From a virus, in the IMG/VR virus record IMGVR_UViG_3300045741_000143, positions 1-22,729 of that record: 22,729 bases of DNA; one strand, given 5' to 3'. Below the pieces are notes generated by a model that saw nothing but the letters and a program-made list of their open reading frames with translations, ran no database searches and was not told the origin of the DNA. Position numbers and translations under genes: made by a program. Of this stretch, positions 2,272 to 22,729 are shown in pieces (position 1 is the stretch's first letter; each line of letters opens with the position of its first letter).

Positions 2272-4155
2272 TTATGAAGCTATTTTTAAAAAGTTAGTTT
2301 CCATCTTACCACTCTTACTTGTCTTGTAATAGAAGAACTCCTGTTTCTCATTAGTCTTCTCTTTTACTTTCAGTTGCCTGTCATCAAGCTCATGAACTAT
2401 ACAAAGAGAAGAACTTATTGTTATATCACAGTTGTAATCCTTGTCATCCCTATAATTGATAGCTGCAATGATCTGTTGTTGATCATACATATTATCAACA
2501 TTGGTTTCAATATAATCCCTGTATGCTGTTATCCAGTATTCTTTCGTTGAAGGATCTATCCCAAAACGATTGTTTACCTTACTCTCCTTCACATTTGCAT
2601 AAGCTATTCTTGGACGTTCCCTTAAATAATGTGCAAACCCATTTCTCTCATACCATCCAAAAATACCAATATTAGACCACTCTATCAAATTAGGAGCCAT
2701 ATAATACATACAAAGTTTTGCAGTTGCCTCATATGCATCTTCTGCCGTCTTTGGACGTTCAGTATATCTTGCTACGAATATACGAGATGTATCATTTGTG
2801 CTGACAAACCCTTTAAATATCTGAGCAGATAGTTTTGAAGAAGAAGAGTTGGCATTGTCTTTATCGTATGAGTCAGTAGAACCCTTGTAAAGATTCATGA
2901 TCACATTATTGTTTGCATCCTTTATAGGATGTTCAAGGATCTTAAACGGTCCATTAGGATCAGGAAACCATGCAACATCTATTGCTTTGCCCTTATCATC
3001 TTTCACCCATTCAAGTCTTCCTGTTTGAATAGCATCATCAAGCTCTCTATGCTTACGAAGGAATGCAAGTCTCTCATTGAGCTTTTGAACATTAAATCTA
3101 TTTCCTCCTGTACGCATGAAAGCCTCATCAGGAACCAATGGCATCTGGGTAAGGTAGTTTATATACGCCTTACCATCTTTTGCTTTGCGAGCCTGTTCTC
3201 TCTTTGTATAGATCTCTTTCATTGACTCTTCACGAAGAGAATTGCCTTGGTCATCAATGACTGCAAACTTCCATGCCGGAACAAAGAAGCAAGTCTTCTT
3301 CATGGCTTGTTGTTCTTCATCTCCTTCCGGAGAGAATGCCAACATATCCCAAGCTTCAGGAGAATAGAATATCTCTTCTAATTCATCTGCACCTTTCTCC
3401 ATGTCTCCACCAGTACCTATCATGATAGCAATACCGGTTTTCTTGAAGTTAGCCTCTAATGCAGGTTGAATATACTTGTATGATTCTTTAATACCTGGAA
3501 ATTTACCAGCTTCCTCAAACATGATAAGACTAGGAGATTTACCAACGGTCACTTGAGCATTATTCTTTGCCGTCATTTGGTAAATCTCACTCATGGAACC
3601 TTTCCAAGAAGGGATACCATCTTCAATTATCTTATACTTTGCTTGAATATAATCGGTAGTATCAGGAGTTTTGCGTTTATAGAACTCTGTATTCTTTAAT
3701 GAATTTAATCCACGCATAGTCATACGCATCGTAGCGAGAGAATATCTATCCTCACCTGCTACAATTATACTTTGGCTATTTGGATAAAGAGAAAACTCTT
3801 TGCCTATAATGGCAGAGAGCTTTTCAGAGAATCCAACTTGACGACGCTTTACAACGCACATATTCTTTTCTTCAAATCGTGCTTGTTCTAGCACCTTAAA
3901 GAATTCATAGTCCATATCAATGAATCTGGGAGCTATTAGATCCTTTCTCTTAGTTAAAGGATTAACTCCCTTAATCTTCCAGAAGTTCAAATACCAATAA
4001 TGATCTCCTGTTATGTGAACACCACCCACATCATATCCTTCCAGGCACCTACGCTTTTCTTCCATCCACCATTCTCTATATTCAAGAGACTTCGGATGAG
4101 CACCGGTGATGCCATCTATAATTACAGGACTAAATTGGATAGTGTTTACAAACAT
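2272..4155 (-). CDS. terL: Terminase large subunit (TerL)
   Basis: 627 residues, the normal size for a TerL: an ATPase that drives DNA into the prohead and a nuclease that cuts the concatemer. A Walker A-like loop is at residues 103-112 (KRRQVGFSEK), a deviant form lacking the usual GK[ST]. The Walker B-like strand with catalytic acids is LIMFEE at 210-215, and the coupling motif is IMIGTGGD at 244-251. In the C-terminal RNase H-like nuclease, candidate metal-binding residues are D428 (KGSTD), E492 (LIEWSNIG) and an aspartate near 574-577 (DYNCDIT). The start overlaps the upstream stop as TAATG, and the portal follows after one base, so translation is probably coupled. The small terminase subunit is not recognisable in this window. 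Confidence 0.93.
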   Translation of the reverse strand: MFVNTIQFSPVIIDGITGAHPKSLEYREWWMEEKRRCLEGYDVGGVHITGDHYWYLNFWKIKGVNPLTKRKDLIAPRFIDMDYEFFKVLEQARFEEKNMCVVKRRQVGFSEKLSAIIGKEFSLYPNSQSIIVAGEDRYSLATMRMTMRGLNSLKNTEFYKRKTPDTTDYIQAKYKIIEDGIPSWKGSMSEIYQMTAKNNAQVTVGKSPSLIMFEEAGKFPGIKESYKYIQPALEANFKKTGIAIMIGTGGDMEKGADELEEIFYSPEAWDMLAFSPEGDEEQQAMKKTCFFVPAWKFAVIDDQGNSLREESMKEIYTKREQARKAKDGKAYINYLTQMPLVPDEAFMRTGGNRFNVQKLNERLAFLRKHRELDDAIQTGRLEWVKDDKGKAIDVAWFPDPNGPFKILEHPIKDANNNVIMNLYKGSTDSYDKDNANSSSSKLSAQIFKGFVSTNDTSRIFVARYTERPKTAEDAYEATAKLCMYYMAPNLIEWSNIGIFGWYERNGFAHYLRERPRIAYANVKESKVNNRFGIDPSTKEYWITAYRDYIETNVDNMYDQQQIIAAINYRDDKDYNCDITISSSLCIVHELDDRQLKVKEKTNEKQEFFYYKTSKSGKMETNFLKIAS

Positions 4156-19668: not shown

Positions 19669-20799
19669 TTAAGATTTAGGTTTAGGAGTCTGGGCATTAC
19701 AGCAGCCATGTTTATCAACTGTTTCTTTTAATGAAAAAACTTGTCCCTGGTTAAGGGATTCGAATAACTCACAATCACTTTCATCCTCATCGAAGAACAT
19801 GCAGTTCTCACATCTTACTTTACGATCGACAAGTCCTGAGTCAGTTGGGGTAGTGGCAGAGCTGACGTGATCCATCTCTGACTCATCAGCCTGACCATAA
19901 GAATACAATCCACAAGACATGGTAGGTTTGATCTTAACATCCATTCCCTGCAAGGAACAAATCCCTTTGCTTTGAATGAACATCTTGCAACTACGACACT
20001 GAGCATACTGATCCAGCATGGTGTATTCCACCGGTTCTACTTCACCAGGCTTAGGTTGGCCCTTAATGTCAAGAAATATATCTGTGTTTATCTCACGCTT
20101 ACGGTTAAGTCCTTTGTCAAGCCATGCATTATACATGCTTACATTCCTTGAATGGGTAACAACCAAGACACGCTTACCCGGATATCGTTTATCGATGGCA
20201 GACATGTAATCTAGGAACCTATTCTTGAAAGCTTCTAATGATTCACCTTGAGGAACGACTGCCTTTTCATGATTGGCATACCAGGAAACCTGAGAGAATG
20301 TCTCATCCACCGGCTTGCCTTGAAAGGAACCAAGGTTCCAGGGACGAAGATCCCCTGTTCTTTGACTGATTGGAATGCCTAATGTTGTAGCAGCTATCTG
20401 AGCTGTGGCAACTGTACGACCCAGGTCACAACAAACAATCACATCTATCTTGCAATTAGCTTTTAAGTAAGTAGCTGCCTTCAATGCTGCTGCTGTTCCC
20501 TTATCAGTCAGAGGAATATCAGCCCAACCTCTCACTCTGTCAATGCCACCATTCTCTGCATTGTATGCAGTGGGACCATGACGAAGAAAGTAGATAGCTG
20601 CATGAGGATCACTATACAAGAAAGCACTTCTATTAACCCTACTCGCTTGAGGCAAGGCCATATCTTCCTTCTCTTCACTCTCACTTTCAGAGGCTATCTC
20701 TCCACCTTCAGAATACTGAGGACCCTTTATATTGCGATCAGACGCATTATCTTTCTTTAAACCTGTTGGGTATCCCAACATCTTGTAAAGTGTTCCCAT
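19669..20799 (-). CDS. Histidine phosphatase domain fused to two Cys4 modules
   Basis: 376 residues. The N-terminal ~50 are polar with the GG motif YSEGGEI (29-35). A histidine-phosphatase (phosphoglycerate mutase-like) domain runs from about 67 to 245: FLRHGPTAYN (71-80) with H74 as phospho-acceptor, GWADIPLTDKG (91-101), CDLGRTVATAQ (124-134) with R128, GES (185-187) with E186 as likely acid, and VVTHSRN (213-219) with H216. The C-terminal part holds two similar cysteine modules: C268, C271, C281, C296 and C330, C333, C343, C366/C367, each CxxCxxF then C then C, similar to small iron-sulfur (HiPIP-like) or zinc sites. It is the first gene of the left block, behind a strong promoter. The substrate is unknown. 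All main catalytic residues are present, so it is probably active. Confidence 0.8.
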   Translation of the reverse strand: MGTLYKMLGYPTGLKKDNASDRNIKGPQYSEGGEIASESESEEKEDMALPQASRVNRSAFLYSDPHAAIYFLRHGPTAYNAENGGIDRVRGWADIPLTDKGTAAALKAATYLKANCKIDVIVCCDLGRTVATAQIAATTLGIPISQRTGDLRPWNLGSFQGKPVDETFSQVSWYANHEKAVVPQGESLEAFKNRFLDYMSAIDKRYPGKRVLVVTHSRNVSMYNAWLDKGLNRKREINTDIFLDIKGQPKPGEVEPVEYTMLDQYAQCRSCKMFIQSKGICSLQGMDVKIKPTMSCGLYSYGQADESEMDHVSSATTPTDSGLVDRKVRCENCMFFDEDESDCELFESLNQGQVFSLKETVDKHGCCNAQTPKPKS

Positions 20800-20819
20800 A
20801 TCGAGAATTATAGCCTCTA

Positions 20820-20852
20820 CAAAGTTAATAGATTTTTAATACAACAAACAAA
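20820..20852 (-). promoter_or_regulatory. Bacteroidota-type promoter for the left block
   Basis: On the minus strand TTTG (20852-20849) is followed by a 21-base spacer and TAACTTTG (20827-20820), an exact TAnnTTTG -7 box. A start about 20812-20815 would leave a leader of some 14 bases before the ATG at 20799. This is the clearest host-type promoter along with that at 16989-17019. Confidence 0.65.
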
Positions 20853-20896
20853 TTTTAAACTCGCACCACTTTGCACCGGTTTCTTTCCCCAAGAGC

Positions 20897-20911
20897 TATA
20901 TTACTAATATA
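20897..20911. repeat. 15-bp perfect palindrome, TATATTACTAATATA
   Basis: Two 7-base arms with a single central C. Its first ten bases, TATATTACTA, recur at 21717-21726, again about 125 bases before a rightward gene start. It could be a binding site of a regulator or a phage polymerase. Confidence 0.4.
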
Positions 20912-21026
20912 ATTTTTTTTATAATTTTTTTATGAACGAGAACTTATACAAGAAGTAACCCCCTCATATCCCCCGTACCTTTCACACGAATCGAAATGAA
21001 ATATTAACTAACTAAAATTAAACAAA

Positions 21027-21371
21027 ATGAAAACGGAAGCATTAGTAAACTTGAAACCTGAAGCAGGTGTAGTATTAAGTAATAACTTAACTGAATCTTT
21101 ACCATTACAACGTATAGATATAGTTAAAGTAATTAAGAAAGTAAATAGAACTGATGGTAAGCAGGATTGGCAAGGTTACCTTATTAAGTTTAAGGAGAGT
21201 GATGTAGTGATGCCTATTTCAGGTGGTACTATATTAAATGCTAGTATAAAGCAAGACTTTGATGCCTTTGAGGTAGATAAAAGTGATAAGAAGAGTATCA
21301 GTTATGAGTTAACTGCAACGATGATGGGCTTTGATATTACTACTAAATCAGTGATCTTGAAGAAGTCGTAG
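21027..21371 (+). CDS. Small soluble protein, first rightward gene, unknown
   Basis: 114 residues, not recognised. It has alternating beta-like segments and charged loops: MKTEALVNLKPEAGVVLSNN, then LQRIDIVKVIKKVNRTDGKQ (27-46), DWQGYLIKFKESDVVMPISG (47-66) and a C-terminal ISYELTATMMGFDITTKSVI. No membrane or signal segment is seen. It is a single-gene transcript: it has its own leader upstream and a strong intrinsic terminator 15 bases after the stop. Such isolated small proteins at the start of phage blocks are often early and abundant. No function can be read from the sequence. Confidence 0.75.
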   Translation: MKTEALVNLKPEAGVVLSNNLTESLPLQRIDIVKVIKKVNRTDGKQDWQGYLIKFKESDVVMPISGGTILNASIKQDFDAFEVDKSDKKSISYELTATMMGFDITTKSVILKKS

Positions 21372-21385
21372 TAATTACATAAATT

Positions 21386-21423
21386 AGAGTGAGAGATAAG
21401 TGTGTTCTCTCACTCTTTTTTTT
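21386..21423 (+). terminator. Intrinsic terminator after 21027-21371
   Basis: A perfect 11-bp stem, AGAGTGAGAGA (21386-21396) with TCTCTCACTCT (21406-21416), a 9-base loop and a run of eight T (21416-21423). It lies 15 bases after the stop of the upstream gene. Confidence 0.92.
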
Positions 21424-21840
21424 AATCCCCATTAGGTCACATATACAGCATAGATTAATATAAGATTTATCAAATAATTTACTCAACTGCCAGATGTACT
21501 TGTTCTTCGAACTAAGACGTAACCTATATATATATTTAACTATTACTTAATAGATTATATAACTTATATATATAACTCTATCAGTTATGTTATAGACTTA
21601 AATAGAATATAGATTAATAGTAATAAGATATATATCATTAAGATATATATATTATATTATATATTATATATAAATATACATAATCATGTAAATCTATATA
21701 TAATACTAATAATCAATATATTACTAGTAAATAATATTCCGACTTATTACAATTAAATAAAAAGAAATATATTTGCTTTAAATAACAAAAAGCAATCAAC
21801 ATATAATCCAATTAGTAATCAATCAATCAAAACTCAGAAT
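21424..21840. other. AT-rich intergenic region, no gene seen
   Basis: 417 bases without a credible gene. GC content is very low: 22 of 180 bases (12%) at 21541-21720, with many TATATA tracts and the 11-base direct repeat AAGATATATAT (near 21626 and 21641). A palindrome TTACTAGTAA is at 21721-21730. It may hold an origin, a phage-polymerase promoter region or simply a spacer. The 3' end holds a candidate promoter (21768-21775). Confidence 0.55.
21768..21775 (+). promoter_or_regulatory. -7 box TATATTTG before 21841 gene
   Basis: Exact TAnnTTTG on the plus strand, 65 bases before the ATG at 21841. The -33 position has no clear TTG, and the low GC content raises the chance of a random match. Confidence 0.35.
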
Positions 21841-22080
21841 ATGAAAACTCAAGAAAAGACCCAAAAATCAATAGATTTCATAGAAGAAATAATAGCTATT
21901 TCAAAGAAATATGAGCTATCAATTGGTCATGAAGATCAACAAGGAGCATTTATAATTGAACCATATTCTGAAGGCAATTCAATGTGGCTTAGAAGTGCAT
22001 TTGAAGAGGAATTAGTTGCAATGCATTACAAGATAGAACAGAATCCTAATTGGGAGTTTAATGAACCAAATGGAGAATAA
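21841..22080 (+). CDS. Small acidic protein, unknown
   Basis: 79 residues, acidic. It begins with a helix (SIDFIEEIIAISKKYELS, 10-27) and carries the stretch IGHEDQQGAFIIEPYSEGN (28-46) followed by WLRSAFEEELVAM. The pattern 'S-x-x-HED-x-x-GAFII' resembles short proteins common in phages and plasmids, for which I know no function. The stop at 22078-22080 lies four bases before the structured segment that starts at 22084. Its leader is A/C-rich (AATCAATCAATCAAAA) with no Shine-Dalgarno site. Confidence 0.7.
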   Translation: MKTQEKTQKSIDFIEEIIAISKKYELSIGHEDQQGAFIIEPYSEGNSMWLRSAFEEELVAMHYKIEQNPNWEFNEPNGE

Positions 22081-22083
22081 TAT

Positions 22084-22385
22084 TTAGACCCAAATAGACT
22101 ACGGCCATTTGTGATTATGTCACATAGAACGAGTATAATAATTAGTAGTACTAGGCACTAATTAGTTTGGGTTTAATCAATGCACCACAACTCATTTCCC
22201 AAGGATGAGCTATTGTACCTTAGCACCTGTCTCGTAAACAGGTTTAATTCATTCTATGAAGTCTAAAAGCTAAAGTACAATAGAGTGCAGAGGGAATTAA
22301 TAATAATCAGTAGCTATGATAGTGTCATCTGCAACCATTTGACCGAGTTAGCGAGCCTTAATACTGACATATAACTCTTAAGCTC
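22084..22385 (+). ncRNA. Candidate structured RNA, unclassified
   Basis: A gene-free stretch of 36% GC, against 12% at 21541-21720, with many nested perfect pairings. P1: TTAGACCCAAA (22084-22094) with TTTGGGTTTAA (22166-22176), 11 pairs with one G-U, enclosing P2 (22110-22114/22120-22124) and P3 (22139-22146/22157-22164) as a three-way junction. P4: CTCAT/ATGAG (22191-22195/22205-22209). P5: 22210-22224 with 22269-22283, 15 positions with one C-A mismatch, enclosing P6 (ACCTGT/ACAGGT, 7-base loop) and P7 (TTCAT/ATGAA). Later pairs: 22286-22291/22328-22333 and 22345-22350/22372-22377. It matches no RNA class I recognise. It may be a free RNA or a long leader of the gene at 22420. Strand is assumed from the flanking genes. 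Confidence 0.6.
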
Positions 22386-22419
22386 TTGGAGTTTATTTAA
22401 ACTATTAAAACCACATAAC

Positions 22420-22710
22420 ATGAATAAGTTCAAAATAGGTGATATTGTGATCAGAACAGGTGAGAATCATAAAGAACATATGGATATGTTAAAAGGATCT
22501 ATTTGGCGTGTTCAAGATGTAAGTGAGGAAATAACTAATATATATCAAATGCTATCATTTGGTGGTCGGTTTAGAACAAAGAACAATATGGCTAATTGGT
22601 ATTTTATAGCATCAGAATTTGAGATATTAAAGAGTCAAATAGTAAGCAATCCATTACCATTATCAGATACAATTGAACTCATTAAATCTATTCAAGATGG
22701 ACCTATATAA
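22420..22710 (+). CDS. Small SH3-like protein, unknown
   Basis: 96 residues. The start FKIGDIVIRTGENHKEHMDM followed by LKGSIWRVQDVSEEITNIY looks like a small beta-barrel (SH3- or KOW-like) 'GDxV' domain common in phage proteins. The second half is FGGRFRTKNNMANWYFIASE, then a short helix (LSDTIELIKSIQDGPI). No catalytic motif is seen. It is preceded by the structured segment (22084-22385) and by switch-like hairpins up to 22393, which may control its translation. The ATG follows an A-rich leader (TTAAAACCACATAAC). Confidence 0.7.
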   Translation: MNKFKIGDIVIRTGENHKEHMDMLKGSIWRVQDVSEEITNIYQMLSFGGRFRTKNNMANWYFIASEFEILKSQIVSNPLPLSDTIELIKSIQDGPI

Positions 22711-22729
22711 AGATTTAAAACCAGGCGAT
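22697..22729 (+). CDS. Possible start of next gene (cut by window edge)
   Basis: An ATG at 22697 in another frame overlaps the previous gene's end by 14 bases and stays open to the edge, reading MDLYKDLKPGD. The short overlap and the 'LKPGD' opening, common at the start of small phage domains, make it plausible. Eleven codons are too few to be sure. Confidence 0.35.
   Translation, partial: MDLYKDLKPGD

Follow-up and report, generated by a model that had tools for sequence, protein, structure and literature searches.

Several classes of structured RNA have been described between phage genes. GOLLD, often longer than 800 nt, and ROOL are elaborate noncoding folds of unknown function that are encoded by phages or prophages, and both are often found near tRNA islands (PMC12286853). 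Structured RNA candidates from the human microbiome are likewise intergenic and unclassified, and some of them lie near phage genes (PMC8040213). Here we analyze a candidate fold of 217 nt (22084-22300, + strand) that lies between two small genes of a virus record. The record stands on its own, has a length of 22,729 bases, and is the window referred to throughout (G000).

The window carries a large terminase (2272-4155) and a portal protein (3-2270), both on the - strand, which match PHROG families phrog_6681 and phrog_6547. The terminase is ~30% identical to named Crassvirales terminases such as cr130_1, cr4_1, and cr124_1. These sequence matches, which comprise a terminase and a portal of the crass type, identify the window as a genome fragment from a divergent crAss-like (Crassvirales) phage. 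Phages of this group are abundant. Little appears to have been written on their noncoding RNAs, and a full-text literature search returned general reviews only.

Genomic setting of the RNA candidate

Genes in the window run leftward to the left of ~20.8 kb and rightward to the right of 21.0 kb. The rightward run consists of a 114-aa gene (21027-21371), a terminator (21387-21424), an AT-rich gap, a 79-aa gene, the RNA candidate, and a 96-aa gene. The GC-skew minimum falls at 21023, and the AT-richest 300 bases (21528-21827, 86% AT) belong to a noncoding stretch at 21430-21840, to which no strand is assigned. This stretch is a probable origin of replication, given its position beside the skew minimum and a similar layout in relatives. 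Relatives G006 and G011 have their skew minimum at their own homologue of the 114-aa gene, and in G006 and G010 the AT-richest stretch lies near the same divergent junction. The skew minimum and AT-rich region probably indicate where replication begins and where the early genes start. The RNA candidate sits 0.3-1 kb away from them.

Other genes near the junction have features of their own. The 114-aa protein has no known family and evolves fast; its homologues in G006 and G011, at the same divergent junction, share ~25% identity and a WQGY motif with it. In the product of 19669-20799, a histidine phosphatase domain (Pfam PF00300) is followed by a fused C-terminal part that is rich in cysteine and occurs alone in other viral contigs. 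One contig that also carries the cysteine-rich domain, 129 kb in length, contains a cluster of 23 tRNA genes (L002:10636-14893).

The upstream neighbor of the RNA candidate (21841-22080, + strand) encodes a 79-aa protein of a small family that also occurs in Bacillus, Burkholderia, and Vibrio phages. Its tblastn matches reach 1e-6 over residues 6-53 and come from unrelated phages. The best of these is a complete gene of 162 bases, and the RNA candidate thus does not split a gene. A self-splicing intron or split gene was rejected on this basis, the 79-aa gene being complete by its homologues, and no intron model matched. The downstream neighbor (22420-22710, + strand) is a 96-aa open reading frame with a positive codon score in its own frame and no match in Pfam or PHROG.

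The gene-free interval between these neighbors spans 339 bases (22081-22419). The original prediction had described a structured stretch of 300 bases, much GC-richer than the AT-rich region before it, that starts four bases after a stop codon. The stretch is indeed gene-free, whereas excess structure is confined to its first 217 bases, and the distance from the stop codon is three bases. The GC content of the fold (36%) is high only in comparison with 21430-21840 (19%) and is close to that of the two neighboring genes (31% and 30%).

Signals for transcription were examined around the element. The putative promoter match TATATTTG (21768-21775, + strand) fits TAnnTTTG, the -7 promoter consensus of Bacteroidota, and is the sole + strand match from 20828 to the end of the window; none follows it on that strand. 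Matches to TAnnTTTG are no commoner in the window than chance would give (24 found versus 25.9 expected). TATATTTG is therefore a possible start, weakly indicated by its sequence, of a transcript that would span the 79-aa gene and the RNA. Phage promoters may differ from the patterns scanned, so the RNA candidate could also have a private promoter. A pattern scan of 20700-22729 with a loop limit of 8 bases found no terminator-like site, and none can be seen downstream of the RNA before the 96-aa gene begins. A strong intrinsic terminator after the 114-aa gene (21387-21424) can nevertheless be read from the sequence; its 10-base stem and T run accompany a loop of 9 bases, which is why the scan missed it.

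Predicted fold and its stability

The candidate is predicted to fold into two domains with a minimum free energy of -59.2 kcal/mol. Domain 1 (22084-22176) is a three-way junction in which P1 closes P2 (22110-22124) and P3 (22140-22163), with mean pair probabilities of 0.93-0.96. The original prediction had recognized this junction and assigned 11 pairs to its closing stem; P1 (22084-22095 with 22165-22176) has 12, two of which are G-U. Domain 2 (22181-22289) contains a closing helix, hairpin P4 (22191-22209), and the long stem P5 (22210-22224 with 22269-22283). The description of P5 as a stem of 15 positions with one mismatch and two hairpins was exact. The mismatch is C-A, the pair probability is 0.92-1.0, and the hairpins are P5a (22225-22243) and P5b (22248-22260), formed by ACCTGT/ACAGGT and TTCAT/ATGAA. 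The pairing of TGCAC (22181-22185) with GTGCA (22285-22289), which had been offered as an alternative, is instead part of the minimum-energy fold, where it closes domain 2.

A further pairing may be present. TTCCC in the P4 loop (22196-22200) is complementary to GGGAA just 3' of domain 2 (22292-22296), and the bare duplex has a predicted energy of -5.4 kcal/mol. Forming this putative pseudoknot would cost P4 two terminal U-G pairs, with which TTCCC overlaps. If real, the pseudoknot would hold the 3' end of domain 2 in place.

The edges of the fold are sharp. At the 5' end it begins 3 bases past the stop codon of the 79-aa gene, and at the 3' end it stops near 22300. The following 119 bases (22301-22419) form a stretch without structure before the next start codon, and 22300-22400 has z values near 0 on both strands. 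When the element is embedded in a predicted transcript of 719 nt (21782-22500), its helices keep pair probabilities of 0.81-0.96, except for the closing helix of domain 2, whose mean pair probability is 0.99 alone and ~0.62 in the long transcript. Part of the 79-aa gene (21872-21885) is complementary over 14 bases, with one G-U pair, to the P5b region (22252-22265). This pairing was considered as a switch and rejected, as it reaches a probability of only 4-6% in the predicted ensemble.

The original prediction had allowed that shuffled sequences might fold as stably as the element. In 1000 dinucleotide shuffles of 22084-22300, the mean energy was -40.8 kcal/mol (sd 4.1), and not one was as stable as the element or more so. 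Its ensemble diversity of 14.4, compared with a shuffle mean of 51, was also matched by none of the 1000, and its positional entropy by one. The + strand energy z values are -4.4 for the whole element, -4.5 for 22084-22177, and -3.7 for 22178-22300, which contains domain 2. When 752 stretches of 217 bases on both strands were scanned blindly, without giving the location of the element, the two at 22021+ and 22081+ had lower ensemble diversities than all others. Energy z alone is not unique to this site, given that 4 of 302 windows elsewhere have z ≤ -4. These calculations indicate that the predicted fold is more stable and better defined than its composition allows.

Both strands were compared. 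The segment 22084-22177 has a z value of -4.5 on the + strand versus -1.95 on the - strand. P1, P4, and the closing helix form well on the + strand, whereas in longer contexts of the - strand they weaken or disappear, with P1 being the most variable. The two G-U pairs of P1 exist on the + strand only. P5 alone is slightly better on the - strand (z -5.1 for 22204-22289) because its C-A mismatch turns into G-U there. On balance, the folding results favor the + strand, which is also the direction of the genes.

Coding potential, known families, and relatives

The original prediction had also considered that a protein-coding signal might run through the region, and none was detected. No open frame of 50 aa lies inside the candidate, and each of its six frames has a negative codon score, whereas the neighboring genes score positively in their own frames. 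The + strand frame common to the 79-aa and 96-aa genes contains only TAA stops, with no TAG or TGA, across 22084-22440. It has 5 stops, whereas the remaining + frames have 15-19 and those of the - strand 5-15. Most genes here also terminate in TAA, and the codon scores of the element are low; this frame is therefore not considered to be read through, and hidden coding through the element was rejected.

Rfam 15, whose models cover GOLLD, ROOL, HEARO, group I and II introns, riboswitches, and small ribozymes among others, gave no family at the gathering threshold anywhere in the window. With a permissive E value of up to 10, the region 21300-22729 gave only chance-level matches far below threshold. 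No tRNA or tmRNA was found in the window, which ends 430 bases past the element. These empty searches agree with the earlier statement that no tRNA, tmRNA, RNase P, group I intron, or riboswitch core was recognizable. The characterization of the locus as an unclassified, strongly structured RNA candidate between two small genes is borne out by the lack of an Rfam match, the noncoding sequence, and the well-defined predicted fold on the + strand. The fold of 22084-22300 is thus a well-supported prediction and a good candidate for a new phage RNA.

Homologues were sought at the DNA level and with a structural model. Searching 21841-22729 by blastn against phage and plasmid collections returned no homologue of the element. 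The same was true when its DNA was compared with 16 related records and when viral contigs were scanned with the 96-, 114-, and 79-aa neighbors, as well as with a profile built from three sequences of the 114-aa protein. A covariance model of the 217-base element, R1, was built from the single sequence. Against 74 related loci, R1 returned only its self-match, which serves as the positive control, and one 15.5-bit antisense match inside the element. Against 29 related records, including eight named Crassvirales genomes, it found no homologue, with no positive control within that search. With filters turned off, R1 gave only low-scoring matches of at most 15 bits on three loci; these were short and collapsed and were judged to be chance. 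No further copies of the element were found in the window.

The relatives available for these searches differ in reach. The nearest by terminase (82-88% identity; L005-L008) are short contigs that end before the element region. The longer ones (57-60%) contain the junction and gave no match to the 217-base model, and a scan of genome contigs with the terminase yielded one distant contig. An empty search with a single-sequence model shows only that a close homologue is absent from the records searched. One segment of G006 (72745-72970; L026:12745-12970) was considered as an equivalent of the element and rejected, given that it lacks a model match and has weaker statistics. This segment is gene-free, lies directly after a stop codon, has a z value of about -1.8 to -2.5, and has no Rfam match.

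Relative G009 (82.8 kb, terminase 58% identical) has its early genes on the - strand, and two of its intergenic segments fold strongly in the direction of those genes. The segment 59360-59140 (- strand; L079:19140-19360) has a z value of -6.9 and an ensemble diversity of 12.7 versus 53.6, and 0 of 150 shuffles equaled it on either measure. The segment 58509-58300 (- strand; L079:18300-18509) has a z value of -4.9. Like the element, these segments belong to the same phage group, lie between small genes in the early region beyond the divergent junction, and are predicted to be very stable. In contrast to the element, they fold mostly into long hairpins, and covariance models reveal no sequence or structural homology in either direction. 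The model of 59360-59140 matched itself and nothing in the window or in 19 other records. According to these predictions, at least two members of the group carry structured intergenic early segments, which are not recognizably the same RNA. As G009 hints, such segments between early genes may be widespread in the crAss-like group.

Possible function and comparison with known systems

Our data allow a mechanism to be proposed, to which we give roughly an even chance. The candidate would be a structured RNA element, mainly acting in cis, between the cistrons of a cotranscribed early operon. Transcripts would begin upstream, probably in or before the AT-rich region, and cover the RNA together with its 79-aa and 96-aa neighbors. 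Such read-through is suggested by the lack of an intrinsic terminator and of a clear promoter around the element. The compact fold would separate the two cistrons. It could block nucleases or ribosomes arriving from one side, mark a processing site, and make stability or translation differ between the two parts of the message; a switch controlled by a ligand or protein would be a special case. We infer the operon, its transcription, and the cis action of the element, and the fold itself is a prediction. Consistent with action in cis, the + strand fold lies on the coding strand of both neighbors directly after a stop codon and persists in the 719-nt transcript, and early genes of G009 also flank strong folds in the gene direction. 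The mRNA leader suggested in the original prediction may be close to this proposal. For the 96-aa gene, the next start lies 119 bases past the fold with no terminator-like site between them, and these 119 unstructured bases make direct control of that start less likely.

The compactness of the fold, its sharp edges, its independence of the flanks, and the lack of structure beyond 22300 would also suit a free-standing noncoding RNA that acts in trans, for instance by binding a protein of the host or phage or by pairing with a message. It would be either processed from the early transcript or expressed from a promoter of its own. This is a tentative possibility, as no promoter or terminator of its own is recognized, no Rfam family matches, and conservation was not found in relatives. 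That lack of conservation, together with the occurrence of comparable z values elsewhere in the window and the selection of the fold by a reader who was seeking structure, could instead indicate a functionless product of chance or the relic of a decayed gene or mobile element. We consider this unlikely, since the shuffles failed to match the element on two measures, the blind scan pointed to the same place and strand, and no repeat or second copy was found in the window. Very unlikely, in our assessment, is that the inverted repeats act as DNA within the adjacent replication origin. The skew minimum and the 86% AT stretch are near, and the fold is in part, chiefly in P5, stable on either strand. 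However, a coding gene separates the element from the AT-rich stretch, it is the AT-rich stretch and not the element that recurs here in relatives, and the full fold is specific to the + strand in longer context.

Beyond the preferred cis-acting element, a broader proposal, which we regard as doubtful, is that the candidate represents a new class of compact, two-domain phage RNAs with a P4-loop pseudoknot, located near the origin in early regions of crAss-like phages. The class would exist in fast-changing, lineage-specific versions, with the G009 elements fulfilling an equivalent function despite their lack of sequence similarity. Should the fold form in cells, it would provide a starting point for studying the processing or control of crAss-like early transcripts.

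The comparison with known systems places the element among unclassified structured RNAs between phage genes, which are a known kind (PMC12286853, PMC8040213), and it matches no family tested. The suggestion that it is a phage ornate RNA finds no support in its size or setting. It shares with GOLLD and ROOL an elaborate noncoding fold, but both are far longer than 217 nt and their Rfam models do not match it. Those RNAs also often lie close to tRNA islands, whereas the window, which extends 430 bases past the element, contains no tRNA gene. The microbiome candidates rest on alignments of homologues, whereas the element is a single sequence compared with that set by description only (PMC8040213). 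Structured leader or intercistronic elements resemble it in lying between co-oriented genes with no recognized promoter or terminator of their own; it differs from them in matching no known leader family and in the gap that separates it from the next start codon.
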